Of a DNA stretch of 33,877 bases, positions 1,736-13,398 are shown in pieces. Below the pieces are notes generated by a model, which ran no database searches, had not been told where the DNA came from, and was given only the letters and a program-made list of their open reading frames with translations. The stretch comes from Phormidium tenue FACHB-886 (GTDB lineage: Bacteria > Cyanobacteriota > Cyanobacteriia > Elainellales > Elainellaceae). Position 1 is the stretch's first letter. Every line of letters begins with the position of its first letter. The stretch spans positions 1 to 33,877 of the forward strand of contig NZ_JACXWX010000052.1 in the NCBI RefSeq assembly GCF_014764505.1. Direction: 5' to 3'. The position numbers and the translations under genes are program-made.

Positions 1736-3468
1736 TTCGCTCTCTGACACCTGCTAACCAGGTTTTAGCTCGCAATTGGGCCTGGCAAGATAGCCTGGTA
1801 ATTCTGGCAGTTTTGGTCTTGATCCTGCTGATCGTCAAAACGGCTCAGATCGAATTTACAGGCAATTACAATGCTCAGATTACGATCGACACTAGTCTTA
1901 AAGCACTGCCTGGATACACGCTACAAACCCTGCTTCGCATGGCGATCGCTTATTTTCTGTCGTTAGGATTCAGCATCGTCTATGCTTACTTGGCGTATCG
2001 CTCGGCTGCCGCATCCCGAATTTTGCTGCCTCTACTGGACATTTTGCAGTCTATTCCGGTTCTATCTTTCCTGCCGGGTGTCGTGCTGGTCTTGATTGCC
2101 TGGTTTCCAGGACAAAACCTGGGTTTAGAGCTAGCGTCGATTCTGCTAATTTTTACGGGCATGGCTTGGAACCTGACTTTTAGTTTCTACCAATCGCTGT
2201 GCAGTATCCCCTCAGACCTGCTCGAAGCTGCCGAAACTTATCGCCTTAACGTCTGGCAGCGATTCTGGACGCTGGAATTGCCAATCGGCGCGATCGGGCT
2301 GATTTGGAATAGCGTCATGTCTGTTGCAGGGGGTTGGTTCTTCTTGATGGCGATCGAGTCTTTCACGCTGGGCAATCAAAGTTTTCAGCTTCCGGGGCTG
2401 GGTTCTTATCTGTCTGAAGCGTCGAATGAAGGCAACTTTGGAGCAATGACCTGGGGACTGACCGTTTTAATTGGCATCATTATCACACTGGATTTTCTAG
2501 TGTGGCGACCGCTGATTGCTTGGGCGGAAAAATTTAAGCTGGAACTGGTCGAAACGGAGACGGTGCCGCAGTCGAGAGTACTGGATGGGTTGCGTCGATC
2601 GCCCACGCTGCGAATGCTGACTGAGCGAGTTTGGATGCCGCTCATCCAAACCGTTGATCTCACCGTTTCTCGTCGTTTTGCCGCTTATCCAGACTCCACT
2701 ATTTATCATCCAAACTCTAAAATCGGCAACTGGCTCAACTGGCTATTTATCAGCGGATTTACCTTCATTGTCCTCTGGGGGACCTGGGAAGCTGTTTTGC
2801 TGTTGCGGCTATTAAGCCTATCTGAATGGAAACAGGTGATGCTGGGTGCGATTCTGACTTCATTGCGAGTAATCGCTGCACTGATCTTGTCCTTGCTGTG
2901 GACAGTTCCGGTTGGGGTCGCAGTTGGCCGCAACCCTCGGCTTGCTCAACTGTTGCAACCCGTGACTCAAATTGCAGCGTCGGTGCCTGCTACTGCCCTG
3001 TTTCCTGTACTCTTGCTCTACCTGGTTCATCTGGGCGGCGGGTTACAAATTGGGGCGATCGTCCTAATGCTGTTAGGCACCATGTGGTACATCCTGTTTA
3101 ATGTCATTGCTGGTGCACAGGCAATTCCTGCAGAACTGTTTGAAGCGGCTGAAGTGTACCGATTATCACGAGTACAACGTTGGAAAACGCTGATCCTACC
3201 GGGGATTTTTCCCTACTTAGTCACCGGCATGATTACAGCGGTTGGCGGAGCCTGGAATGCCAGCATTGTCAGTGAGTATGTGCAGTTTCAAGGAAAAACT
3301 CTCACGACTTTAGGACTGGGATCAAGCATTTCGCAAGCCTCTGCGACCAGAAATTATGCCCTCCTGCTGGCAGCAACCGGGGTCATGTCGTTGCTGGTTG
3401 TGCTGACTAATCGGCTGGTATGGCGACGATTATACAAGCTGGCTCAGTCAAAATATCAACTGAATTAG
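1732..3468 (+). CDS. ABC transporter permease with two fused permease domains
   Basis: At 578 residues this is about twice the length of a single SsuC/TauC/NrtB permease, and the sequence explains why: two permease modules are joined in one chain. Each has its own EAA loop that docks on the ATPase: LLEAAETYRLNVWQRFWTLE in the first half and LFEAAEVYRLSRVQRW in the second. Hydrophobic segments surround both loops, and a hydrophilic linker of roughly 70 residues joins the halves (about residues 270-330). One polypeptide could thus supply the whole membrane channel. The ATG overlaps the ATPase stop by four bases. No substrate-binding protein gene follows; the nearest candidate of the right class is the SsuA-like lipoprotein at 22799. 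Confidence 0.9.
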   Translation: MIRSLTPANQVLARNWAWQDSLVILAVLVLILLIVKTAQIEFTGNYNAQITIDTSLKALPGYTLQTLLRMAIAYFLSLGFSIVYAYLAYRSAAASRILLPLLDILQSIPVLSFLPGVVLVLIAWFPGQNLGLELASILLIFTGMAWNLTFSFYQSLCSIPSDLLEAAETYRLNVWQRFWTLELPIGAIGLIWNSVMSVAGGWFFLMAIESFTLGNQSFQLPGLGSYLSEASNEGNFGAMTWGLTVLIGIIITLDFLVWRPLIAWAEKFKLELVETETVPQSRVLDGLRRSPTLRMLTERVWMPLIQTVDLTVSRRFAAYPDSTIYHPNSKIGNWLNWLFISGFTFIVLWGTWEAVLLLRLLSLSEWKQVMLGAILTSLRVIAALILSLLWTVPVGVAVGRNPRLAQLLQPVTQIAASVPATALFPVLLLYLVHLGGGLQIGAIVLMLLGTMWYILFNVIAGAQAIPAELFEAAEVYRLSRVQRWKTLILPGIFPYLVTGMITAVGGAWNASIVSEYVQFQGKTLTTLGLGSSISQASATRNYALLLAATGVMSLLVVLTNRLVWRRLYKLAQSKYQLN

Positions 3469-3676
3469 AATGAACTTTGGTTGTCTTAAATGTAAGCCTA
3501 CACTGCCAGCATTTGAATCCGGAAACTATCGACTGTATGTTACGGGTCAGGGGCTTTCCTGAATTGGAACTTGGATGGTTCAGGCAGCAACCGTCTAGAT
3601 TGGCTATTGCTTCCTGATTGATGGCTTTAGCTACGTAGCTGTCCTAGTTGTGTTACTCGCAATGCAGTTGCAATCG

Positions 3677-3709
3677 TCTTGATCTAGGCACTACGTGCCT
3701 AGATCAAGA
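3677..3709. repeat. Perfect 15-bp inverted repeat with a 3-nt loop
   Basis: Left arm 3677-3691 (TCTTGATCTAGGCAC) pairs perfectly with 3695-3709, leaving TAC as the loop. It lies about 210 bases past the permease stop. It could act as a bidirectional terminator or be a dispersed palindromic repeat. The T-run after it (3710-3714) also starts the next hairpin. Confidence 0.85.
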
Positions 3710-3752
3710 TTTTTGTATGAGAACCCTGCTTCGTGGGGTTCTCATACAAAAA
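3710..3752. repeat. Perfect 17-bp inverted repeat with a 9-nt loop
   Basis: Left arm 3710-3726 (TTTTTGTATGAGAACCC) pairs perfectly with 3736-3752, leaving a nine-base loop. It abuts the previous hairpin. With five T at one end and five A at the other it could terminate transcription in either direction, although the distance from the upstream operon also fits a mobile palindromic repeat. Confidence 0.85.
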
Positions 3753-3892
3753 CAATGTCATTACAAAGTTTTTGCAACAAAGCCATTTCTTGAAACGACA
3801 TGAATTCCGCTTGCGGAACTGAAACTTTCGGAATCTTGATGAAGCCGATACAATTACGGCATTACTCGCGACAATCATTTGGAGGGAGTTCT

Positions 3893-4387
3893 ATGATCGC
3901 CTTATCTGGAATCACCATCCAAACCAAAATCTATGAGAGTTCGGCTTCTCCAGTGTGTCGAGGCACTAGAGTGCAAGATGGACGAGCGATCGTCGTCAAA
4001 CTGCTCAAGCAAAATTATCTCTCTCCTCAAGAGTTAATCTGCTACAAACAGGAATATGAAATTGCTCGTTCGCTTCATCTTGAAGGTCTAGTCAAGGCAT
4101 ACCGTCAGCAGGAGCATCAACGTACGCTCGTCATCTTTCTAGAAGACTTTGATAGAGAATCTATCGAAGGATGGATGCGGCAACAGCCAAGTTTTTGCCC
4201 AATGTCTCCGTGCCTTTGCGTTTCCGCGTCTTCATAAATGGAATATGGCTCAGCTTCAATCCCAAAATATTATCAATAATGTAGTGGAGTTGCTGTTGGG
4301 CAAGCTGAAAAAACTACTAGAGATGACCCAATTAAAAGCCAGCCGAGTCAGGGAACAGAAATTGTTGTCGTTATGAATCAGGAGTAG
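3893..4387 (+). pseudogene. Remnant of a Ser/Thr kinase - histidine kinase hybrid gene (module A)
   Basis: Both ends of a giant cyanobacterial sensor-kinase gene remain while the middle is gone. The start is ATG 3893 behind GGAGGG; codons to about 4190 encode the N-lobe of a Ser/Thr kinase (MIALSGITIQTKIYESSASP, then VVKLLKQNY and LVKAYRQQE, then LVIFLEDFD). After WMRQQ the reading is foreign and stops at 4237. A different frame ending at TAG 4385-4387 reads SQPSQGTEIVVVMNQE, which matches the last strand of a histidine-kinase ATPase domain. The full-length family usually exceeds 1500 residues, so several kilobases are missing. The tail ends six bases before the response regulator start. Module B (5899-7113) is the better preserved paralogue. 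The GTE-type tail is short, so that assignment rests partly on the parallel with module B. Confidence 0.75.
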
Positions 4388-4393
4388 GCTGTT

Positions 4394-5017
4394 ATGAGTC
4401 CAGTGATTCGCGTTCTGATTGTGGATGATCATGCCATCGTCCAACAAGGGTTAGCCGCCATCATCAACGAAGAATCAGATATGACGGTTGTGGGTCAAGC
4501 CAAGGACGGGAGCGAGGCGATCGACTTATTCCGCCAGGTACAACCTGACGTCACCTTAATGGACTTACGGATGCCCCAAATGGGAGGCGTAGAAGCAATT
4601 GGTATAATTTGTGCTGAATTCAAAGCGGCTCGTATCATGGTATTGACCACTTACGATGGAGATGAAGATATTTATCAAGGGTTGCGGGCAGGGGCAAAGG
4701 GTTATCTACTCAAAGACTGTAGACCTAGCGACCTGCGAACCGCCATTCGTACCATCTATGAAGGGCAGCAGTATATTCCACCCCACGTTGCTGCCAAGTT
4801 AGTGCAGCGGATGAATCATCCAGAGTTGAGCCATCGGGAGTTAGAGGTGCTTCAGTTGGTCGCACAGGGCATGAGCAATCTAGAAATCGGTACTGCTTTA
4901 AATATTAGCGAAAGCACCGTCAAATCAAACATCAACCGAATTTTAAGCAAGCTGGGGGCTAAAGACCGCACCCAAGCGACGATCATTGCCTTAAAGCGGG
5001 GAATTGCTAACCTTTAA
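4394..5017 (+). CDS. NarL/FixJ-family response regulator (module A)
   Basis: A complete 207-residue two-domain regulator: receiver at about residues 1-120 and LuxR-type DNA-binding helix-turn-helix at about 140-207. The acidic pair DD at 11-12, the phosphoacceptor Asp57 in VTLMDLRMP and the conserved lysine in LLKD are present, so phosphorylation chemistry looks intact. The HTH reads LSHRELEVLQLVAQGMSNLE and continues to STVKSNINRILSKLG. The purine-rich AGGAGTAGG just upstream is a good ribosome binding site. It would have been driven by the kinase whose remnant ends six bases earlier; with that kinase destroyed, its phosphate source is unknown. The regulator at 7110 is a close paralogue; the two differ inside the recognition helix (KSNI here, KFHI there). 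Confidence 0.95.
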   Translation: MSPVIRVLIVDDHAIVQQGLAAIINEESDMTVVGQAKDGSEAIDLFRQVQPDVTLMDLRMPQMGGVEAIGIICAEFKAARIMVLTTYDGDEDIYQGLRAGAKGYLLKDCRPSDLRTAIRTIYEGQQYIPPHVAAKLVQRMNHPELSHRELEVLQLVAQGMSNLEIGTALNISESTVKSNINRILSKLGAKDRTQATIIALKRGIANL

Positions 5018-5247
5018 GCCCATCACCTACTTAAGTCTGAGATCAAACCGAACTCAAGTTTAGTTTACGTTGGTACCTCAGGTTGCCTGATGAGCGATCG
5101 TTTAGCTCATTCAAATACAAACTCTGAATTGACGACAGATTTGAGTTTATCCCTTACAGTGAGGCATACGAACGGTTACTAAAGATAGAAGAAGAGCGAT
5201 TTAACAGTACCTCTGGTACAAAAATTTGCTTTTCTTCAGAGGTGTAA

Positions 5248-5856
5248 ATGGGTCAAAATATTTTTTCTGGAGCAACTGACGATCCTTTCAATGTTTACAA
5301 AGCAGCGCGCGACCAATTAGCCGTACCGCCTTCTGAGCGAGACCATCGGCAAGGGTCATTGAACGCCAAAGTTGTACTGGTGGAGTACGGAGATTATCAA
5401 TGCCCTCAGTGTGGAGAACTGTATGCCTTAATTCAGAAGATTCAGCAACAGCTCGACACAGTCTTCCTTAAAGGGAACGATTTCTGCTTTATCTTCAGGC
5501 ATTTTCCTCAGCCACAAATTCATCCTCAAGCTCAAAAAGCAGCAGCAGCAGCAAAAGCAGCAGCAGCACAGGGGCAATTCTGGCAGATGCACGAAATTTT
5601 GTTGCAACATCAGCAAAATCTGGGAGATGGTTATTTGGCGGAATACGCTGACAATTTAGGGCTTGATGTCACCCAATTTGTTCGAGATATTGCCAGAAAA
5701 GTGTATGTCGATCTAATCAAACAGGATATTACGAGCGGAATGCATAGTGGAGTGATCAGCACTCCAACTTTATTTATAAATGGTGTTCGTTACAAAAAGG
5801 CTTTAGAACTTGAGCCGCTATTGACCGAGATCGTCAAATTTGGAGATTTTTCATGA
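5248..5856 (+). CDS. DsbA-like thioredoxin-fold protein with CPQC active site (module A)
   Basis: 202 residues in the DsbA/thioredoxin_4 fold family, which exchange disulfides with client proteins. The redox pair is Cys52 and Cys55 (YQCPQCGELY); the usual cis-proline loop is STPTLFINGV at about 171-180. I see no signal peptide or membrane anchor, so a cytoplasmic location is more likely than periplasmic, unlike classical DsbA. Between them lies an alanine-rich helix (about residues 98-107) encoded by repeated GCA codons. AGAGGTG upstream supports the ATG at 5248. It sits 230 bases behind the response regulator, as does its paralogue at 7918 in module B. The client is unknown. Confidence 0.88.
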   Translation: MGQNIFSGATDDPFNVYKAARDQLAVPPSERDHRQGSLNAKVVLVEYGDYQCPQCGELYALIQKIQQQLDTVFLKGNDFCFIFRHFPQPQIHPQAQKAAAAAKAAAAQGQFWQMHEILLQHQQNLGDGYLAEYADNLGLDVTQFVRDIARKVYVDLIKQDITSGMHSGVISTPTLFINGVRYKKALELEPLLTEIVKFGDFS

Positions 5857-5898
5857 CAAGCTGGTTTTATCAACAAATTATATTAGTACTATTTTATT

Positions 5899-7113
5899 AT
5901 GATTTCCTTGCCCAATGTCATTGTTAAAGAAAAAATCTATGAGAGTCTCAATTCCTTGGTCTACCGAGGAATTAGGGAACAAGATAATTTAGCTGTTATC
6001 CTCAAAGTTCTTAAACAAGACTATCCTGAAATTATTCAATCCCTCAATATTGAAGGGGTAATCAAAGCTTATAGCCAACAAGAGTATCAAAGAACACTCG
6101 TCATTCTTCTAGAAGATTTTGGTGGGGAGTCTTTAGAAGAATGGATGCGAGACATTGCTGAGGCATATTGTCCAATGCCCCTGCCTAATTTTTTAATTTC
6201 GCAATTACCGTTACAAGAATCTTGGCTAGTATTCATGCTGCCAATGTGATTCACAAAGACATTAATCCCGATAACATTGTTGTCAACCCAGAAACGGGAC
6301 AAGTTAAAGTCATCGATTTTGGTATCTCCACGCGTCTGGGTCGCATCAATCCTACCTTCAAAAATTCCAGCGTTTTAGAAGGTGCTTTAGCTTACATTTC
6401 ACCCGAGCAAACCGGGCGGATGAATCGTTTGCTCGACTACTGCACCAATTTTTACTCGCTCGGCATAACCTTCTACAAATTGCTCACTGGACAATTACTG
6501 TTTCCCACAACCGACGCTCTGGAGTTAGTTCATTGTCATATGCGATCGCCGCTTTTCAAGACATCACACAACGCAAGCAAGCAGAACACCTTTTAGCCAA
6601 TTACAACCGTACTTTAGAAGAACAAGTTACGGAACGAACAGCAGCGTTACAGCAAAGTGAAACCGCACTGCGCCATCGAGAACAAGAATTACGGCTGATC
6701 GCGGATGCTCTACCTGCTCTGATTAGCTACGTCGATGCCAATCGGTGCTATCAATTTATCAACGGTGCCTATGAAGTCTGGTTTAACCGTAGTCGTGATG
6801 AGATTTTGGGCAATCCTATTCGTCAACTCCTGGGTGAGACAGTTTATCAACGGGTTGAACCATTCATTAATCGGGTGTTCGAAGGACAAACGGTACCACT
6901 GGAGGCGGAAATCCCTTTTCCACGTTCTGCTCTTTACGAATTAGAGACAATGGACAAGGATTTGAAGTCAACCACACGATCCTAAGGCAGAGGTTTGGCT
7001 TACTGGGCATCACCGAACGAGCAGAGTATATTGGAGCACAGCTCTCCATTGAGAGCCAACCGGGACAGGAAACAGAAGTAATTGCAACGGTGCAGCGGGA
7101 GATAGCGACATGA
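5899..7113 (+). pseudogene. Remnant of a Ser/Thr kinase - PAS - histidine kinase hybrid gene (module B)
   Basis: Four pieces of one sensor-kinase gene lie in order but in different frames. From 5899: kinase N-lobe (KEKIYESLNSLVYRG to LVILLEDFGGES). A one-base loss in the T-run 6189-6194 shifts the frame, after which the catalytic loop IHKDINPDNI and the DFG motif (VIDFGIS) read correctly to about 6535. There LELVHCH jumps directly to SYAIAAFQDITQRKQAE, the end of a PAS domain, then a coiled linker and another PAS (about 6690-6910). Near 6920-6930 the gene jumps again, and another frame, IRDNGQGFEV to GLLGITERAEYIGAQL to SIESQPGQETEV, gives the end of a NarX/DegS-type ATPase domain, stopping at 7111-7113. 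The AAA ATPase, GAF and HisKA_3 regions expected in between are missing. The stop overlaps the next ATG (ATGA). Confidence 0.85.
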
Positions 7114-7739
7114 GCCAGCCTACGGTCGTTCGCGTTTTGATTGTCGACGACCACTCAATCGTCCGGCAAGGACTCGCGGCAATCATTGAGAATAAGCCAG
7201 ATATGACAGTGGTCGGTCAAGCGGGCAATGGGCAGGAAGCAATCGACCAATATCGGCAGCTTCAGCCAGATGTCACCTTAATGGACCTACGGATGCCGCA
7301 GCTGAACGGGGTTGATGCCACGGCAGCAATCTGCGCTGAATTTGCCCATGCTCGCATTATTGTACTCACCACTTACGATGGTGACGAAGATATCTATCGC
7401 GGATTACGGGCTGGAGCGAAAGGGTCTCTGCTCAAGGATGCTGAACCGGATACCCTACTAGACGCCATTCACATCATTCATAACGGGCAACAATACATCT
7501 CGCCAGACGTGGCTGCCAAGCTGGTGCAGCGAATGAACAATCCAGCGCTGAGCGATCGAGAACTGGAGGTGGTTCATCTCATGGCACGTGGTCTGAGCAA
7601 TTACGACATTGGTACGGCTTTAGGTATTACCGAGAGTACCGTCAAATTTCACATCAACCGAATTTTAAGCAAGTTAGGGGTGAGCGATCGCACTCAAGCA
7701 GTGATCATGGCATTGAAGCGAGGAATTGCCAAGTTGTAA
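7110..7739 (+). CDS. NarL/FixJ-family response regulator (module B)
   Basis: 209 residues, intact receiver plus LuxR-type HTH, and clearly a duplicate of the regulator at 4394: both share VRVLIVDDH or IRVLIVDDH, DVTLMDLRMPQ, VLTTYDGDEDIY, GLRAGAKG, DVAAKLVQRMN or HVAAKLVQRMN, and INRILSKLG. The phosphoacceptor aspartate of LMDLRMP and the lysine of LLKD are retained. Its ATG overlaps the TGA of the kinase remnant by four bases, so kinase and regulator were once translationally coupled. The HTH reads LSDRELEVVHLMARGLSNYD, then STVKFHINRILSKLG. That the coding sequence is intact although its kinase is broken suggests it is still used, possibly with another kinase. Confidence 0.95.
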   Translation: MSQPTVVRVLIVDDHSIVRQGLAAIIENKPDMTVVGQAGNGQEAIDQYRQLQPDVTLMDLRMPQLNGVDATAAICAEFAHARIIVLTTYDGDEDIYRGLRAGAKGSLLKDAEPDTLLDAIHIIHNGQQYISPDVAAKLVQRMNNPALSDRELEVVHLMARGLSNYDIGTALGITESTVKFHINRILSKLGVSDRTQAVIMALKRGIAKL

Positions 7740-7917
7740 CTGAACCCAAGTTCGATTGAGAGTTAGCCGCAGATGTAGTTGATGGTTGTCCTTTTGTTCC
7801 TGCAAATGCTCAACTCTGAGTGGACGACAAAGTAGCATCAGTTCTATAAGCTAAAGTCATAACAAATGCCAAGGTGAGTTCAACCATTGCAGCCAGGAGG
7901 AATCGCAGATATAAGTC

Positions 7918-8526
7918 ATGGTAATCACTTTGTGCGATGAGAACTCCTTTTCGCTTGAGTGCCTGATGAACCCAAATAATTATCCTCATCAACTTATTGT
8001 TTCACCCTCTCAACAGGACCACTACCAGGGAATGCTGAATGCCCCAGTGGTGCTTGTGAAATATGGGAATTACCAATGCCCTCAGTGTAGGGAGGTGCAT
8101 CGGTTAATCCAGACGATTCAGCAAGATTTCGCTTCCGTGTTTCCTAAGGAGAATGGGATATGTGTGATATTTCGTCACTTTATCCAGAATTCAATCCATC
8201 CGCAAGCACAAAAGGCAGCAGAAGCAGCAGAAGCCGCCGCCGCACAGGGTCAGTTTTGGCAGATGCACAACAGCTTGTTTGAGCATCAACAAGAGTTGAG
8301 AAGCGGCTATCTGGTGGAATATGCTAAAGATTTAGGACTTGATATCTGTCAGTTTCTACAAGATATATCCAAACGAGTCCATGTTGATCACATTAACAAA
8401 GACATTGAAAGTGGAAGCCAGAGTGCAGTAAAGGCTGCTCCAGCTTTGTTTATTAATGGAATTCGCTATACCGATCGCTGGAACCTTGAGTCCTTGATAA
8501 CAGCCTTGCTCAATGCAAGCCATTAA
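7918..8526 (+). CDS. DsbA-like thioredoxin-fold protein with CPQC active site (module B)
   Basis: Also 202 residues in the longest reading; paralogue of the protein at 5248. Redox pair Cys54/Cys57 (YQCPQCREVH), proline loop AAPALFINGIRY, and the same alanine-rich helix (KAAEAAEAAAAQGQFWQMH) but with mixed codons instead of the GCA run. The loop has AAP before the active proline where module A has STP. No signal peptide is visible. ATG 7918 is preceded by AGGAGG about 20 bases upstream, rather far; the in-frame ATG at 7966 (MNPNNYPHQ) is a possible alternative. The spacer before it shares an 18-base segment (7812-7829 against 5120-5137, two mismatches) with the spacer before the first DsbA-like gene, so the duplication included intergenic DNA. 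Confidence 0.87.
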   Translation: MVITLCDENSFSLECLMNPNNYPHQLIVSPSQQDHYQGMLNAPVVLVKYGNYQCPQCREVHRLIQTIQQDFASVFPKENGICVIFRHFIQNSIHPQAQKAAEAAEAAAAQGQFWQMHNSLFEHQQELRSGYLVEYAKDLGLDICQFLQDISKRVHVDHINKDIESGSQSAVKAAPALFINGIRYTDRWNLESLITALLNASH

Positions 8527-8563
8527 GCCAACTAAAACCAATCAGAAATATTGAGGTTAAACC

Positions 8564-8986
8564 ATGAATCAGATTTTACGCGCTCAATCTGCTTCCATTG
8601 CAACAAGAGATGAATGCCACTGGCAGCACAATTTAGACCCAATCCAGTTCCATTCCCAATCTCATCTTTTATCTGCAAAACGTAGCCGCAATCGAGGTAT
8701 GGTTCTATCATGCCAGGGGTGGCAGAAGTTGATGCAAGCTGGAGTATTGTACGACAAATTTGGAAATCGCTACACCTATGAACAGTTGAGTGAGCGATCG
8801 TTTCTGGATGAGCGCACCGTCAGTCGGTTGTTAAGCTGTGAAGTGAAAGTGGATAAGCGTACGCTAAGGACATTTTTTCGCGCTTTCAACTTGATATTAG
8901 AATCTGGTGATTACACCTCATCCAAGAGTGATGGAATGAGTGCTATATCGCCTGATACATCAACTCACGTTGCTTTGACACGATAG
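8564..8986 (+). CDS. Stand-alone HTH protein related to N-terminal modules of cyanobacterial multidomain proteins
   Basis: 140 residues. The centre (about 42-118) reads RSRNRGMVLSCQGWQKLMQA, then RYTYEQLSERSFLDERTVSR, then VDKRTLRTFFRAFNLILE and SGDYT. This matches a helix-turn-helix module I know from the N-termini of large cyanobacterial NACHT/WD40-type and related proteins, where it is followed by a DYT-type linker and effector or repeat domains. Here the protein stops about 20 residues after the linker, so either the module works alone or the gene is a truncated head of a larger one. The first 40 residues show no motif. It follows the second DsbA-like gene by 37 bases and may share its transcript. 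Family recognition is by memory of the motif. Confidence 0.7.
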   Translation: MNQILRAQSASIATRDECHWQHNLDPIQFHSQSHLLSAKRSRNRGMVLSCQGWQKLMQAGVLYDKFGNRYTYEQLSERSFLDERTVSRLLSCEVKVDKRTLRTFFRAFNLILESGDYTSSKSDGMSAISPDTSTHVALTR

Positions 8987-9333
8987 ACTGAGCAATTTCA
9001 CAACTAATCACTCCTCTTGTGCTTTTGAAGTCATTCGCTCAATTGCAATTTGAGGATGTCTGTATTCAATACTTGCGAATAAAGCCAGAAGTGCAAAGTA
9101 TACAACAATTAGTTCGCATCGCGCGAAGTGTCGGTTACGCGTTGCGATTCTAGTACTGTCTAACATTAAAGGTCGCACGACGCAAACAATTCTCAGCAAC
9201 GCCCAAAATCTGGCGTATTCATCTATTTAGAAACTGGCGATCGCACTGGATCGATTGCAGATCATCACGCCTATTGGGCATTGATCTGTCGATGTAGACA
9301 AACAGAACACTCGACCTCTGTGAAGGAGCACAC
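8987..9333. other. Intergenic region with a possible gene fragment
   Basis: About 350 bases without a confident gene. One frame, from GTG 9019 to TAG 9151-9153, would encode about 44 residues (FEDVCIQYLRIKPEVQS, then IQQLVRIARSVGYALRF) with a protein-like pattern. It lacks a ribosome binding site and may be the tail of a lost gene, perhaps the missing part of the HTH protein upstream. GAAGGAG just before 9334 is the ribosome binding site of the dehydrogenase gene. Confidence 0.35.
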
Positions 9334-10245
9334 ATGACGCAGATTACAACACCATTTGGACGGCATTCCACCGCTGCCGATGTCGTAGAAGGAATTGATC
9401 TCTCTGGCAAACGGGCGATCGTCACGGGAGCCGCATCGGGCATTGGCGTAGAAACAGCGCAGGCACTGGCGAGTACAGGAGCCGAGGTGACACTGGCTGT
9501 GCGGAATACCGAGGCAGGAGCGCAGGTTGCGGCTGACATTACGGCTACCACCAGCAACCAGAACATTCATGTTGCCCCGCTTGATCTCAGCGATCGCAGC
9601 TCGATCGCCAAATTTGTCGCCGCATGGAATGAACCGCTGCACATTCTCATCAACAATGCAGGCGTAATGGCACTGCCCGAACAGCGCACACCCGAAGGCT
9701 GGGAGATGCAGTTTGCCACCAACTATCTCGGACACTTTGCCCTGGCGCTCGGACTACATGACGCTCTAGCTGCGGATGGTGCCGCCCGTATCGTGTCGGT
9801 TAGTTCTAGTGGGCACCTGATGTCGCCCATTGTGTTCGATGATATTCACTTCATGTTCCGGCCTTATGATCCGTGGCTGGCGTATGGACAGTCTAAAACC
9901 GCAAGTATTCTCTTTGCCGTGGGTGCCACTGCCCATTGGTTCAGGGATGGCATTACCGCTAATGCCCTGATGCCCGGTGCGATCGCCACTAACCTCCAGC
10001 GTCACACGGGCGGTCTTAGAACCCCACCTGAGCGGCAGAAGACACCAGCGCAAGGTGCAGCAACTTCTGTTCTGCTAGCAACCTCTCCGCTACTAGAGGG
10101 CATTGGCGGGCGCTATTTCGAGGACTGCAACGAAGCCACCCTTGTTACCAACGGTAACGGCTATATGAGCGGCGTCGCCCCCTACGCCCTTAACCCAAAC
10201 AATGCCGATCGGCTCTGGGAGGAATCGTTGCGCCTGCTTGCTTGA
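9334..10245 (+). CDS. Short-chain dehydrogenase/reductase, retinol-dehydrogenase-like
   Basis: 303 residues of the classical Rossmann-fold SDR family, reducing or oxidising an alcohol/carbonyl with NAD(P)H in the cytoplasm. The cofactor motif TGAASGIG is at 31-38, NNAG at 107-110, the catalytic serine lies in VSVSSSGH (about 154-161) and the catalytic pair is Tyr184 and Lys188 in AYGQSK. The insertion FDDIHFMFRPYDP before the tyrosine is typical of the retinol-dehydrogenase/WW-oxidoreductase-like branch common in bacteria. ATG start behind GAAGGAG. Codon choice is richer in G and C than the kinase remnants to the left. The substrate is not predictable. It is alone on its strand, with large gaps on both sides. 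Confidence 0.92.
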   Translation: MTQITTPFGRHSTAADVVEGIDLSGKRAIVTGAASGIGVETAQALASTGAEVTLAVRNTEAGAQVAADITATTSNQNIHVAPLDLSDRSSIAKFVAAWNEPLHILINNAGVMALPEQRTPEGWEMQFATNYLGHFALALGLHDALAADGAARIVSVSSSGHLMSPIVFDDIHFMFRPYDPWLAYGQSKTASILFAVGATAHWFRDGITANALMPGAIATNLQRHTGGLRTPPERQKTPAQGAATSVLLATSPLLEGIGGRYFEDCNEATLVTNGNGYMSGVAPYALNPNNADRLWEESLRLLA

Positions 10246-10673
10246 TCTGACAGTAACAGTGAGCTTCACGCCGTTGATGAACAAATTCCCGCCGTAAGCC
10301 TGCCATCCTTTCGTCCATCATGCCCACGAGCACCACCGGAAATAGGAACGCACCCACCATCAGGATTGGCGAAAAACCAGCAGATTTAATTAAAGCGGAG
10401 CGTACTTCGCAAAGCATTGTCAACAAACTTAATGTTCAAGTTAAATCGCATCTCTAGCGAAATTAGCAACGAAATCATGGGTATACCTGGAGATCTCCCT
10501 TAGAGGATGTTATGAACTTCTATAGAACTTAGCCTAGAAGCGAAATTCAGCCCTCGTTGCGATTTTCGAGAAATAGTTGGAACTGGCTCACAAAGTTGAT
10601 GATTTTCAGAGTTCGTAACACTCTCTATGCCCCTTGAAAACTGGTCTATCACTTAAAAGGAAAACTCAAAACT
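10246..10673. other. Intergenic region, no confident gene
   Basis: About 430 bases. The only recognisable item is a copy (10486-10506) of the motif at 92-111; it contains the palindrome GGAGATCTCC. A minus-strand open frame ending inside the dehydrogenase gene has a hydrophobic stretch (MVGAFLFPVVLVGMM) but no other support. AAAAGGAAAA about eight bases before ATG 10674 is a fair ribosome binding site for the next gene. Confidence 0.4.
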
Positions 10674-11213
10674 ATGAATTCACAGGCAGCTCAAACCACC
10701 ACTACTGCTGACGAGTTGGCAATCCGTGCTTTCCATCGCCAGATGATTGATGCTTGGAATCGGGGTAGCGGCGAAGGCTTTGCTGCCCCGTTCAGCGAAA
10801 CTGCCGATTTCCTCACGTTCGAGGGCACGCATCTCAAGGGTCGAAAAGAAATCGCTGCATTTCATCAACAAGCGTTCGACACGGTTGTCAAAGGAACACG
10901 CTTGGAGGGTGAGGTGAATTTTGTCCGCTTCGTGAACTCGCAACTCGCGCTCATGCACGTAGTTATCAGGGTAATACTGCCCGGACAAACCGAAACTTCA
11001 CCGTCACGAGATTCGCTGCCGCTATACGTCGTAACGAAAAGTGACGAAGGCTGGCAGATCGAAGGGTTACTCAATACCCGGAAGTTAACGCTAGAACGCC
11101 AATTCTTCTTAGACGACTTTGACTCGTTGAGCGCAGAGGCTCAACGTCAAGTGACCGACCTCGTTTCAGATCTCAAGCAGCGCCATCAAGCAGATCAATC
11201 AAAGGAGATGTAA
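10674..11213 (+). CDS. SgcJ/EcaC-type protein (SnoaL/NTF2-like fold)
   Basis: 179 residues. The pattern AIRAFHRQMIDAWNRGSGEG, then FSETADFLTFEGTHLKGRKE, then IAAFHQQAF and GEVNFVRF matches the SgcJ/EcaC family of small alpha+beta-barrel (NTF2-like) proteins. These are about 130-150 residues long and annotated as oxidoreductases, though few have a proven reaction. The extra C-terminal 30 or so residues are charged and helical (VTDLVSDLKQRH). The stop TAA at 11211-11213 directly touches the GTG of the flavoprotein gene, so the two are coupled. No signal peptide, hence cytoplasmic. It may modify or bind a small substrate also handled by the flavoprotein. Confidence 0.82.
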   Translation: MNSQAAQTTTTADELAIRAFHRQMIDAWNRGSGEGFAAPFSETADFLTFEGTHLKGRKEIAAFHQQAFDTVVKGTRLEGEVNFVRFVNSQLALMHVVIRVILPGQTETSPSRDSLPLYVVTKSDEGWQIEGLLNTRKLTLERQFFLDDFDSLSAEAQRQVTDLVSDLKQRHQADQSKEM

Positions 11214-12626
11214 GTGAACATTGAATACTACGACGACATTATTGTCGGTGGTGGCAAAGCGGGTAAAACACTGGCACCTGCATTAGTTGCGACTGGACGG
11301 AGAACTGCTTTGGTTGAACACAGCTTAACCATGATTGGTGGCGGGTGTATTAACATTGCTTGCATTCCGACCAAAACGATGGTGGCAAGTGCGGAGGTTG
11401 CCAATATAGTGCGGAATAGTGCCGCTTATGGTGTGAAAACCGCCGAACCTACGGTTAATCTGGCAGCGGTCATTCAACGCAAGCGATCGGTCGTGGAAAC
11501 GGCACGGGCAGTGAACCTGCACAATTTAGAAACAGCTCTTGGTCACGATCTCATCATTGGTACAGCGCGGTTTGTCGCTTCTAACACCATTGAGGTGGCA
11601 ACAGCGGAGGGTACCATTCGGCATCTCACCGCTGAACGATTGTTTATCAATACGGGCACGCGCCCATTAATTCCATCGATACCTGGACTCAAAGAAACTG
11701 GGTTTCTCACCAGCGAATCGATTATGGAATTGGAACAATTGCCGGAGCACTTAGTTGTCCTTGGTAGTGGTTACATTGGGCTGGAGTTTGCCCAGATGTT
11801 TCGGCGCTTTGGCTCTCGTGTCACGGTGATTGGGCAAAGTGGGCAAATCCTGTCGCAGCAAGATCCAGATATCGCGATCGCTGTTCAAACCCTCCTACAA
11901 CGGGATGGTATTGATTTTTTGCTGAAGTCGAAGGTATTGAACGTCGTTCGCGAAGCATCTCCTTTGGAGAATCGCGTTGCTAATGAAACCAACCTGCAAA
12001 TTCAGATGGACGATCGTGAAATTAGCCTGCGGGGTTCGCATTTGCTCGTCGCTGTCGGTCGATTGCCAAACAGTGATTCCTTAAATTTAGCCGCTGCGGG
12101 TATAGAAGCAGACGCTCGCGGTTTTATTCCAGTCAACGATCGTTTAGAAACCAACGTACCGGAAATTTGGGCATTGGGTGACATCAATGGTGGACCGCAA
12201 TATACCCATGTGGCACTGGACGATTATCGAATTATCAGAACCAATTTGATTGAGGGCGGCAACCGCAGCACGCACAATCGCCCCATTCCCTCCTGCTTGT
12301 TTATTGATCCAGAGTTGGCTCATGTCGGTTTAACTGAAACCGAAGCGCAGCAACAAGGATATGCGATTCGAGTTGCAAAACTGGATGCTTCCGCTATTCC
12401 TAGAGCCAGAACCCTTGGTCAAACTGACGGACTGCTGAAGGCGATCGTAGACACTGAAACAGGACGGATTCTCGGTTGTTCCTTGTTGTGTCATGCAGCA
12501 GGTGAGGTGATTTCGACCGTGCAGATGGTAATGCAGGCTCAACTGCCCTACACCGTTTTGCGCGATGGCGTATTAACGCATCCCACCATGACCGAAGGGT
12601 TAAATCTATTGTTCTCAAAGCTCTGA
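11214..12626 (+). CDS. Mercuric-reductase-like FAD-dependent disulfide oxidoreductase
   Basis: 470 residues, class I pyridine nucleotide-disulfide oxidoreductase with bound FAD. The FAD-binding glycines are VGGGKAG (11-17); the redox-active disulfide is Cys45 and Cys50 in GGCINIACIPTK; the NAD(P)H Rossmann motif is VVLGSGYIGLEFAQ (about 180-195); the second FAD site is WALGDINGG; and the C-terminal dimer-interface motif is HPTMTEG at about 456-462. The N-terminal heavy-metal-associated domain and C-terminal vicinal cysteines of true MerA are absent, so mercury reduction is unlikely; it belongs to the mercuric-reductase-like group of unproven substrate. GTG start immediately after the stop of the previous gene, with GGAGATG upstream. 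Confidence 0.92.
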   Translation: MNIEYYDDIIVGGGKAGKTLAPALVATGRRTALVEHSLTMIGGGCINIACIPTKTMVASAEVANIVRNSAAYGVKTAEPTVNLAAVIQRKRSVVETARAVNLHNLETALGHDLIIGTARFVASNTIEVATAEGTIRHLTAERLFINTGTRPLIPSIPGLKETGFLTSESIMELEQLPEHLVVLGSGYIGLEFAQMFRRFGSRVTVIGQSGQILSQQDPDIAIAVQTLLQRDGIDFLLKSKVLNVVREASPLENRVANETNLQIQMDDREISLRGSHLLVAVGRLPNSDSLNLAAAGIEADARGFIPVNDRLETNVPEIWALGDINGGPQYTHVALDDYRIIRTNLIEGGNRSTHNRPIPSCLFIDPELAHVGLTETEAQQQGYAIRVAKLDASAIPRARTLGQTDGLLKAIVDTETGRILGCSLLCHAAGEVISTVQMVMQAQLPYTVLRDGVLTHPTMTEGLNLLFSKL

Positions 12627-12632
12627 GGCAGC

Positions 12633-13398
12633 GAAACTGTCAGAACTGGGTAGCCGACTTGAGGGCAGAAGCCCCGACTTGATAGACTGGCTACTGCCCC
12701 CAATCTCTGCTCCATGAACGCTCTATGAACTGCCCTGATTGTGGCTCAGCCCGCACCACCTGCTTGCAACGTACGACAAATCTGGGTTATGCCCTGTTTC
12801 ACTGCAAGGATTGTTGTCGCACCTTCAATAAGCGCACCGGCACCCCCTGCAACTTTATCGAGGTGCCCACCGATATCGTCTTTCAGGTTTTGTTATGTCG
12901 ATTCCGCTACAAGCTGAGCTTTCGTGACATTGCCGAATTCTTCCTGCTGCGAGGGTTCGAGTTCACCCATGAAACCGTGCGCGACTGGGAAGAACGCTTT
13001 ACTCCTCTATTTGCTCAGCAGTTGCGTGCCAAACGTCGAGGGAAAGTGGCAGAATCTGGTTTGTGGATGAGACGTACATCCGTGTCAAAGGTCGGTGGTG
13101 TTACTTGTACCGAGGCATTGATGAGAACGGAGATTTAGTCGATGTGAGGTTGAGCGAGAAGCGAGACATGGAAGGGGCAAAAGCGTTTTTTGCTCAAGCG
13201 TATGATGAGGTAAGGAGCTTTATGAGAGTACAGCACTATATGACAGAAGTAGTGTCACTATCCGAGCGAAGAGAACGATTTACAGAACGAGTCAGTGAAT
13301 TACAAGCGATCTTCCAAGCTGCTTAGCAAAGAAGAAGGAGAGGAAAAACATGCTTATGAAAAAGAGACGAGATTTGAATACTCAGTTCTGACAATTTC
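12633..13398 (+). mobile_element. Decayed IS6-type insertion sequence
   Basis: The inverted ends are GAAACTGTCAGAACTG at 12633-12648 and CAGTTCTGACAATTTC at 13383-13398, which pair over 16 bases with one mismatch. They bracket a broken IS6-family transposase. The total of about 770 bases is shorter than typical intact members, consistent with the internal deletion seen in the transposase. I see no clear target-site duplication; one or two outer bases may belong to the ends. The left end starts seven bases after the flavoprotein stop. Confidence 0.7.
12725..13326 (+). pseudogene. IS6-family transposase, frameshifted and internally deleted
   Basis: The N-terminus has the zinc-ribbon-like CPDC and CKDC pairs, then FRYKLSFRDIAEFFLLRGFE and THETVRDWEERF, characteristic of this IS6 branch. 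A one-base loss near 13055-13057 breaks the frame just before WFVDETYIRVKGRWCYLYRG, which carries the first catalytic aspartate. In the new frame KAFFAQA runs straight into YDEVRSFMRVQHYMTE and the usual C-terminal SLSERRERF and FQAA, so roughly 100 residues with the second Asp and the Glu of the DDE triad are missing. Two independent lesions make it inactive. The intact family is about 230-240 residues. Confidence 0.85.

Follow-up and report, generated by a model that had tools for sequence, protein, structure and literature searches.

Hybrid kinases that combine a Ser/Thr kinase with a histidine kinase are abundant in some cyanobacteria, with 12 in Nostoc PCC 7120 (PMC1262709), and the portions of the literature available to us say little on their partners and targets. 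Among them, the HstK-type kinases Alr2258/HstK of Anabaena PCC 7120 (PMC2176072) and Alr0709 (PMC12282138) carry a Ser/Thr kinase, a GAF domain and a histidine kinase in one chain; in the accessible sections of both reports, neither a cognate NarL regulator nor a DsbA-like partner or a promoter is named. Here we describe a stretch of 33,877 nucleotides from Phormidium tenue FACHB-886, hereafter the window (C204:1-33877; C labels denote contigs of this 8.93 Mb genome of 255 contigs). Within 3893-8526, a kinase remnant, a NarL-type response regulator gene and a DsbA-like gene follow one another twice on the + strand, and the spacer in front of each DsbA-like gene holds a conserved promoter-like element.

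Both window kinases are broken and survive as fragments only, unlike the complete chain of HstK-type kinases. The full layout is found in three paralogues of about 2000-2100 residues on C42, C235 and C178 of the same genome, all three of which match Pkinase, AAA_16, GAF, PAS, HisKA_3 and HATPase_c profiles in one chain and are followed by a NarL gene and then a DsbA-like gene; the likeness to Alr2258 is one of domain layout. Rre1, a cyanobacterial LuxR/NarL-type regulator as in the cassette, has a defined regulon. According to the parts of the report at hand (PMC13421787), this regulon consists of proteostasis genes, the sensor is Hik2 and not a hybrid Ser/Thr kinase, and the motif proposed in PCC 7942, 5'-GTNCGGK-3', is unlike the distal palindrome AACTNNAGTT of the cassette element. 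In the scytonemin cluster of Nostoc punctiforme, the two-component pair NpF1277/NpF1278 lies near the dsbA-like gene NpR1268, as in the cassette, but the gene order differs, the dsbA-like gene sits inside the biosynthetic cluster, and the regulator is discussed with an AraC-XylS reference, unlike the cassette NarL; this comparison is by description only, from the accessible part of that report (PMC2726228). By sequence, the best solved relative of the DsbA-like protein is BdbD (3eu3, E 1.7e-8). Literature searches returned no recognisable description of the cassette or of the AACTNNAGTT element, in a coverage that mostly leaves out subscription papers, so that an earlier account is possible; the exact string AACTTAAGTT gave no match about cyanobacteria by title among the matches listed.

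Gene order of the cassette and its conserved spacer

Comparison of gene orders indicates a widespread cyanobacterial cassette, in which a predicted very large HstK-type kinase is followed directly by a NarL regulator and then, mostly after 170-360 bp containing its own promoter-like region, by a DsbA-like gene. A scan of named genomes gave at least 560 relatives, those returned being cyanobacterial. In the best 80 of these at least 560, a regulator lies within 600 bp upstream of the DsbA-like gene in 55/80, at 600-5000 bp in 16/80 and nowhere in 9/80, and a Ser/Thr kinase, a histidine kinase and NarL within 600 bp are all present in 45/80; the NarL share is biased because these 80 are the closest relatives. 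In a family set of 36 genomes (DsbA-like at E <= 1e-20, 80 matches; NarL at E <= 1e-85, 81 matches), NarL lies within 600 bp of the DsbA-like gene in 38/80 and within 5 kb in seven more. In the genome of the window, 12 of 18 DsbA-like places (read from match lists, with two C244 rows taken as one) have a close NarL paralogue just upstream, three of them with a full-length kinase. Moreover, 96 loci totalling 1.607 Mb were chosen for their DsbA-like gene, one own-genome place being present twice (L012, L013). There, the distance from NarL to the DsbA-like gene, taken between matched stretches and not start codons, is 170-360 bp in 60, 360-600 bp in three and larger in 17, with no NarL in reach in 16. 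The regulators match Response_reg and GerE profiles, and D52 and D57 (numbering of the first sequence) are invariant in 17/17, the latter presumably being the phospho-acceptor. The link of kinase, NarL and DsbA-like genes suggested by an earlier sequence-only reading of the window is thus real and widespread, and adjacency is common rather than rare.

The element contains the distal palindrome AACTNNAGTT, which is followed 80-83 bp on by GRCGACR. A proximal dyad, AACTCTGAGTT and its variants, overlaps GRCGACA, and CCTATATTGAAT stands 25 bp further in many copies. Counting k-mers in 59 non-redundant upstream regions found AACTTAAGTT in 19 and GTGGACGACA in 13, compared to 3 for the top 10-mer of one shuffle. 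The distance between the two is fixed: both window copies and many members of their lineages have 80 bp, most others 83 bp; in copy 1, 80 bp separate the start of the distal AACT from the start of GACGACA. Exact AACTNNAGTT plus GRCGACR at spacing 80 or 83 occurs in 44 of the 96 DsbA-like upstream regions and in none of 20 shuffles, and with at most one mismatch in 57 of 96 against a shuffle mean of 0.05. At twelve other spacings no exact match was found in these 96 regions, save two at one spacing. In the complete 1.607 Mb, exact sites at spacings 80-83 number 71, compared to 0, 0, 2 and 0 for wrong-spacing sets and 0 for the reversed pattern. A DsbA-like gene comes next at 48 of the 71; of the other 23, ten lie just after NarL, five are divergent from a kinase gene and eight are neither.

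The genome of the window has seven exact sites at spacing 83, six of which adjoin a NarL or DsbA-like gene, while one (C62) is divergent from a kinase start; its two exact sites at spacing 80 are window copy 1 and C235, window copy 2 having one mismatch. Of ten own-genome stretches, C62 and C36 were examined. Class-wide, 69 of 388 genomes have an exact spacing-83 site. Across the 36 family genomes, the exact spacing-83 element and a close NarL are both present in 17 and both absent in 16, with the element alone in one and NarL alone in two (Fisher 6e-7). The element-only genome is G028, without a NarL match at the cut-off, and the NarL-only genomes are G003, which has sites of the spacing-80 type, and G014. 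In addition, the element is kept in front of DsbA-like genes that have no NarL upstream (L026, L031, L036).

The symmetry of the palindrome is kept through base changes. Of 57 non-redundant sites, 44 have a palindrome with complementary outermost bases (C-G 20, G-C 11, T-A 11, A-T 2), and in 34/57 the outer base of the distal site recurs in the proximal one, compared to 17.3 by shuffling; these 57 stretches remained from 70 after 13 had been dropped by eye as chance, a choice that favours symmetry and shared outer bases. Between the two dyads, many copies also contain a middle inverted repeat, GATGGA-N8-TCCATC (L064, L066, G279:C94:18014), with matched changes such as GATGGG..CCCATC.

Several observations weigh against the proposed cassette and against its NarL regulator acting on this element. 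Even at two mismatches and spacings 79-84, 24 of the 96 upstream rows lack the element, including one lineage (L041, L043, L044, L048, L051, L052, L060, L075), a second (L077, L080, L087, L092, L095) in which only the downstream part is kept, and both own C178 genes. In the 388 genomes, the 137 exact spacing-83 sites stand against 61 for the reversed control, summed from the table; 21 of the 137, in which the shared middle sequence is missing, were taken for chance matches. In the whole family, a loose pattern (spacing 60-85 with GRCGACA) gave 64 sites compared to 70 reversed controls, and a TATATT pattern gave 72 compared to 43, with 35 of these 72 lying outside any cassette, including one on C24 of the own genome; the own-genome pattern at two mismatches is noise, the controls exceeding the matches. 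As these loose family-wide patterns are hardly enriched, only exact spacing and location were taken as evidence. The outer bases follow lineages, which raises the symmetry and shared-base counts, and the sites are not independent because their conservation is partly shared descent. Among the 17 genomes with both element and NarL, G011 has only a chance-like site. Finally, 35 of the 80 family-set DsbA-like matches have no such NarL within 5 kb (five at contig edges, the others partial or remoter), and 5 of 17 own-genome NarL matches have no DsbA-like gene behind them.

DsbA-like protein, candidate target genes and proposed signalling

Both window DsbA-like proteins match Thioredoxin_4 (E 1.8e-21 and 2.6e-18) and DSBA profiles, and resemble described Thioredoxin_4/DsbA-like proteins in profile, in their CXXC and in a proline, which we take to be the cis-proline of the thioredoxin fold, kept in 96/96 rows. 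No signal peptide was seen in them by eye, no predictor having been run. The sequence-only reading considered both CPQC proteins and both regulators intact. Their frames are indeed open, with CPQC in both window copies, but CXXC does not extend to the family: the active site is CXXC in 37 rows, CXXS in 46, SXXC in 2 and CXXF in 3, and both cysteines are absent in 8. Because 59 of 96 rows lack CXXC, the family-wide function cannot depend on a dithiol, and the earlier designation as a disulfide protein does not hold as a shared function. An AlphaFold model of copy 1 reached a pLDDT of 45, and copy 1 had no match in viral contigs. A haloarchaeal protein on the Natrinema versiforme plasmid pNVE500 (L225 4995-6518), annotated as a formate/nitrite transporter, has an N-terminal DsbA-like domain that shares 49% identity with window copy 1.

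In pairwise comparison with near relatives, dN/dS is 0.07-0.11 for NarL and 0.16-0.31 for the DsbA-like genes, which does not suggest neutral evolution. The test is weak and measures old history, since dN/dS of the kinase remnants is much the same (0.09-0.30 for finite dS); it records long constraint and not the present state, and was dropped as a sign of recent selection. Of the proposal that regulator and thiol protein are selected independently of the kinase, there remain the open frames beside broken kinases, while dN/dS does not discriminate.

Besides DsbA-like genes, exact or one-mismatch sites precede genes for SDR (short-chain dehydrogenase), isochorismatase-type hydrolases, Flavodoxin_2/FMN reductase, SnoaL, GMC oxidoreductase, cupin and alpha/beta hydrolase, as well as for a crystallin-type and a peptidoglycan-binding protein, a pyridine-nucleotide disulphide oxidoreductase like that encoded at 11214-12626, and a homologue of the reading frame (ORF) 8564-8986; Pfam scanning covered 17 of the proteins encoded next to such sites. 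According to deposited annotation, plasmids of Nostoc, Trichormus and Chroococcidiopsis have similar enzyme genes around their cassettes. In Trichormus variabilis ATCC 29413, the NarL regulator AVA_RS28515 belongs to an intact cassette, and the DsbA-like gene AVA_RS28490, some 4 kb away, is preceded by an exact element. The enzyme genes of the element would point to the handling of reactive small molecules.

The functional link is sharper than first proposed, in that the spacer carries a conserved two-dyad promoter-like region which also marks other genes, and we infer that the adjacent NarL regulator reads it; the conserved stretch is probably the target of this regulator. We consider it likely that signals pass from an HstK-type kinase to a NarL regulator, and that this regulator acts on the two-dyad promoter, which drives the DsbA-like protein and redox enzymes for small molecules. 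The kinase would phosphorylate the adjacent regulator, a regulator dimer would bind both dyads, and the bound regulator would switch the DsbA-like gene together with the enzyme genes that carry this element (SDR, isochorismatase-type hydrolase, FMN reductase, SnoaL, GMC, cupin). The window regulators may work under a full-length paralogous kinase of the same genome, or without phosphorylation. More tentatively, and with somewhat less than even confidence, HstK kinases may be interchangeable sensors that converge on one NarL class and a portable two-dyad promoter; the hallmark output would be a cytosolic thioredoxin-fold protein whose redox cysteines have been lost repeatedly and which would therefore have a binding or adaptor role, perhaps in feedback on the kinase or regulator, alongside electrophile- or quinone-handling enzymes. 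With a dedicated regulator, a delimited promoter-like region and a short target list, the signal and output of such a kinase would become testable with reporters, and the repeated loss of CXXC in a family kept beside its regulator offers a handle on non-catalytic thioredoxin-fold proteins.

The spacer might instead be a promoter region read by some other regulator, global or a sigma factor, with the adjacency of NarL and DsbA-like genes reflecting operon history. Exact sites without NarL just upstream (13 with a DsbA-like gene next and 13 others, five of these divergent from a kinase) would agree with this, as would the element of G028, and the conserved 115-150 bp exceed what two dimer sites need. 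Nevertheless, we think it rather unlikely given the co-occurrence of element and NarL at genome level and the cassette gene adjoining each of the 9/9 exact own-genome sites at spacings 80 and 83; moreover, inverted AACT half-sites would fit a LuxR/NarL-type dimer. That the spacer is a structured RNA, either a leader or a small RNA, rather than DNA operators appears extremely unlikely. The palindromes and the middle inverted repeat could pair in RNA, and 6/57 outer pairs are G-T, but RNAalifold gave no consensus structure for the 57 non-redundant sequences, the two strands hardly differ in mean folding z-score (-1.48 and -1.26), and a search of window positions 3400-9400 against Rfam returned nothing at E <= 0.5. 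These results agree better with operators or a promoter, and a structured RNA family was dropped as a candidate.

A different history was put forward in the sequence-only reading, namely tandem duplication of the three-gene module followed by independent kinase losses under selection for regulator and DsbA-like protein. The same three genes do stand twice in a row by gene calls, and the spacer similarity was confirmed, 5120-5137 and 7812-7829 differing at 2 of 18 bases. Tandem cassette pairs also occur in L025, L027 and L029 and on the Nostoc sp. C057 plasmid p057_G. Copies 1 and 2 are 73% identical in NarL (204 aa) and 61% in the DsbA-like protein (175 aa). However, trees of 96 DsbA-like and 85 NarL sequences place them in different supported clades, together with members of other genera: the NarL of copy 1 shares 91% identity with that of Nostoc sp. 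ATCC 43529 (L033), and the NarL of copy 2 86% with that of Scytolyngbya (L045). Approximately unbiased (AU) tests, on quick trees, reject a joint clade of the window copies (p 7.2e-5 for DsbA, 0.0012 for NarL), which would cost about 90 log-likelihood units. The second DsbA of L025, L027 and L029 falls in a third lineage, so that tandem pairs combine different lineages. A recent tandem duplication is rejected by these trees and tests, and the wider scenario of duplication and loss is highly improbable; judged from the trees, the two cassettes belong to two old lineages with closer relatives in other genomes and are not mutual duplicates, and their spacer similarity is explained by the conserved promoter-like element rather than by recent duplication. 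Yet another account is a decaying genomic island, whose genes would be functionally unconnected and kept only because they hitch-hike on plasmids or islands. The broken window kinases, the broken C113 NarL and C244 DsbA frames, the near-identity of neighbouring SDR and SnoaL genes to a Nostoc plasmid (91-96%) and one cassette on a plasmid typed conjugative speak for it. On the other hand, frames are open and dN/dS is low over long divergence, a constraint that dN/dS does not date, the element is kept at DsbA-like genes without NarL, and dyad symmetry is kept through base changes; altogether this account is very unlikely.

Kinase remnants and neighbouring genes of the window

Compared to the three full-length paralogues, the copy 1 kinase has kept three segments, namely residues ~15-124, 32 residues from the middle (~609-640) and some 28-33 residues at the C-terminal end. 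What is left of copy 2 is ~16-275, in two frames with a 12-residue gap, a PAS segment corresponding to ~1628-1771 of the C235 kinase, and roughly 63 C-terminal residues. As proposed earlier, both kinases keep their N and C termini and have lost the middle by different deletions; the inner fragments come in addition to what was proposed. The PAS and C-terminal pieces of copy 2 (pS 0.52 and 0.43) are closer to the C235 kinase than its N-terminal piece (pS 0.90), for which reason this remnant may stem from recombination between two kinases and not from deletions in a single one. The coordinates are listed in Table 1.

Table 1. Features in and behind the two cassettes of the window
Feature	Position	Strand	Remark
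Kinase remnant copy 1, N-terminal Ser/Thr kinase part (residues ~15-124)	3893..4204	+	72% to C178 kinase, same genome
Kinase remnant copy 1, middle piece (~609-640), other frame	4236..4331	+	against full-length kinases
Kinase remnant copy 1, extreme C-terminus (~1989-2016 of C178 kinase)	4301..4384	+	46% over 28 residues
NarL-type response regulator copy 1 (REC + GerE)	4394..5017	+	91% to L033 NarL
Distal palindrome GAACTCAAGTTT, copy 1	5050..5061	+	
Proximal dyad AACTCTGAATT + GACGACA, copy 1 (18-base match noted earlier)	5120..5137	+	
DsbA-like (Thioredoxin_4) protein copy 1, CPQC	5248..5856	+	
Kinase remnant copy 2, N-terminal part	5899..6195	+	against full-length kinases
Kinase remnant copy 2, remaining Ser/Thr kinase domain, shifted frame	6189..6650	+	
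Kinase remnant copy 2, PAS stretch	6527..6937	+	
Kinase remnant copy 2, HATPase domain end	6922..7110	+	71% to C235 kinase
NarL-type response regulator copy 2	7110..7739	+	80% to C235 regulator
Distal palindrome GAACCCAAGTTC, copy 2	7742..7753	+	one mismatch to AACTNNAGTT
Proximal dyad AACTCTGAGTG + GACGACA, copy 2	7812..7829	+	
DsbA-like (Thioredoxin_4) protein copy 2, CPQC	7918..8526	+	
Small protein without Pfam match	8564..8986	+	61% homologue in L127 (another genome) behind one-mismatch element
Short-chain dehydrogenase (SDR)	9334..10245	+	91% to SDR of Nostoc C057 plasmid cluster
SnoaL/DUF4440-type protein	10674..11213	+	96% over first 80 aa to Nostoc C057 plasmid cluster
Pyridine-nucleotide disulphide oxidoreductase	11214..12626	+	

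On p057_G, the annotated order is AAA family ATPase (in the place of the kinase), response regulator, DsbA family protein, PAS protein, response regulator and DsbA family protein, followed by alpha/beta hydrolase, DNA starvation protein, GMC oxidoreductase, SDR and a SgcJ/EcaC-type protein. Its second kinase has dCache, HAMP, PAS, HisKA_3 and HATPase_c, with no Ser/Thr kinase match. Because of this tandem order and the near-identity of SDR and SnoaL to p057_G, the window seems to be a worn form of a gene order that also exists elsewhere. The SDR and SnoaL values (91-96%) far exceed the 74% that DsbA copy 1 reaches with this plasmid, and a recent transfer of the genes at 9334-11213 is possible. 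ORF 8564-8986 had no match in PHROGs. On C178, an oxidoreductase of the same family as that at 11214-12626, by protein likeness judged by eye, lies behind a one-mismatch element.

Elsewhere in this genome, a NarL paralogue at C113:6001-6624 (L016 5002-5625) is broken by stop codons and is followed by an element copy and a GMC oxidoreductase gene; 4 kb further, L016 contains a second element copy and a DsbA-like gene without CXXC. On C36 (L106 3400-5400), the 3' remainder of a NarL gene precedes a one-mismatch element, an SDR gene and other genes, with a kinase start at C36:8743, and this stretch reads as another worn cassette.

In the window itself, two perfect hairpins in tandem (15- and 17-base arms) lie at 3677-3752, between ABC transporter genes and copy 1. 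Adjoining the enzyme genes, 12633-13398 is a probable insertion-sequence remnant with 20-base inverted repeats that are 90% complementary, between which broken reading frames at 12725-13326 resemble a transposase, as read from their translation.

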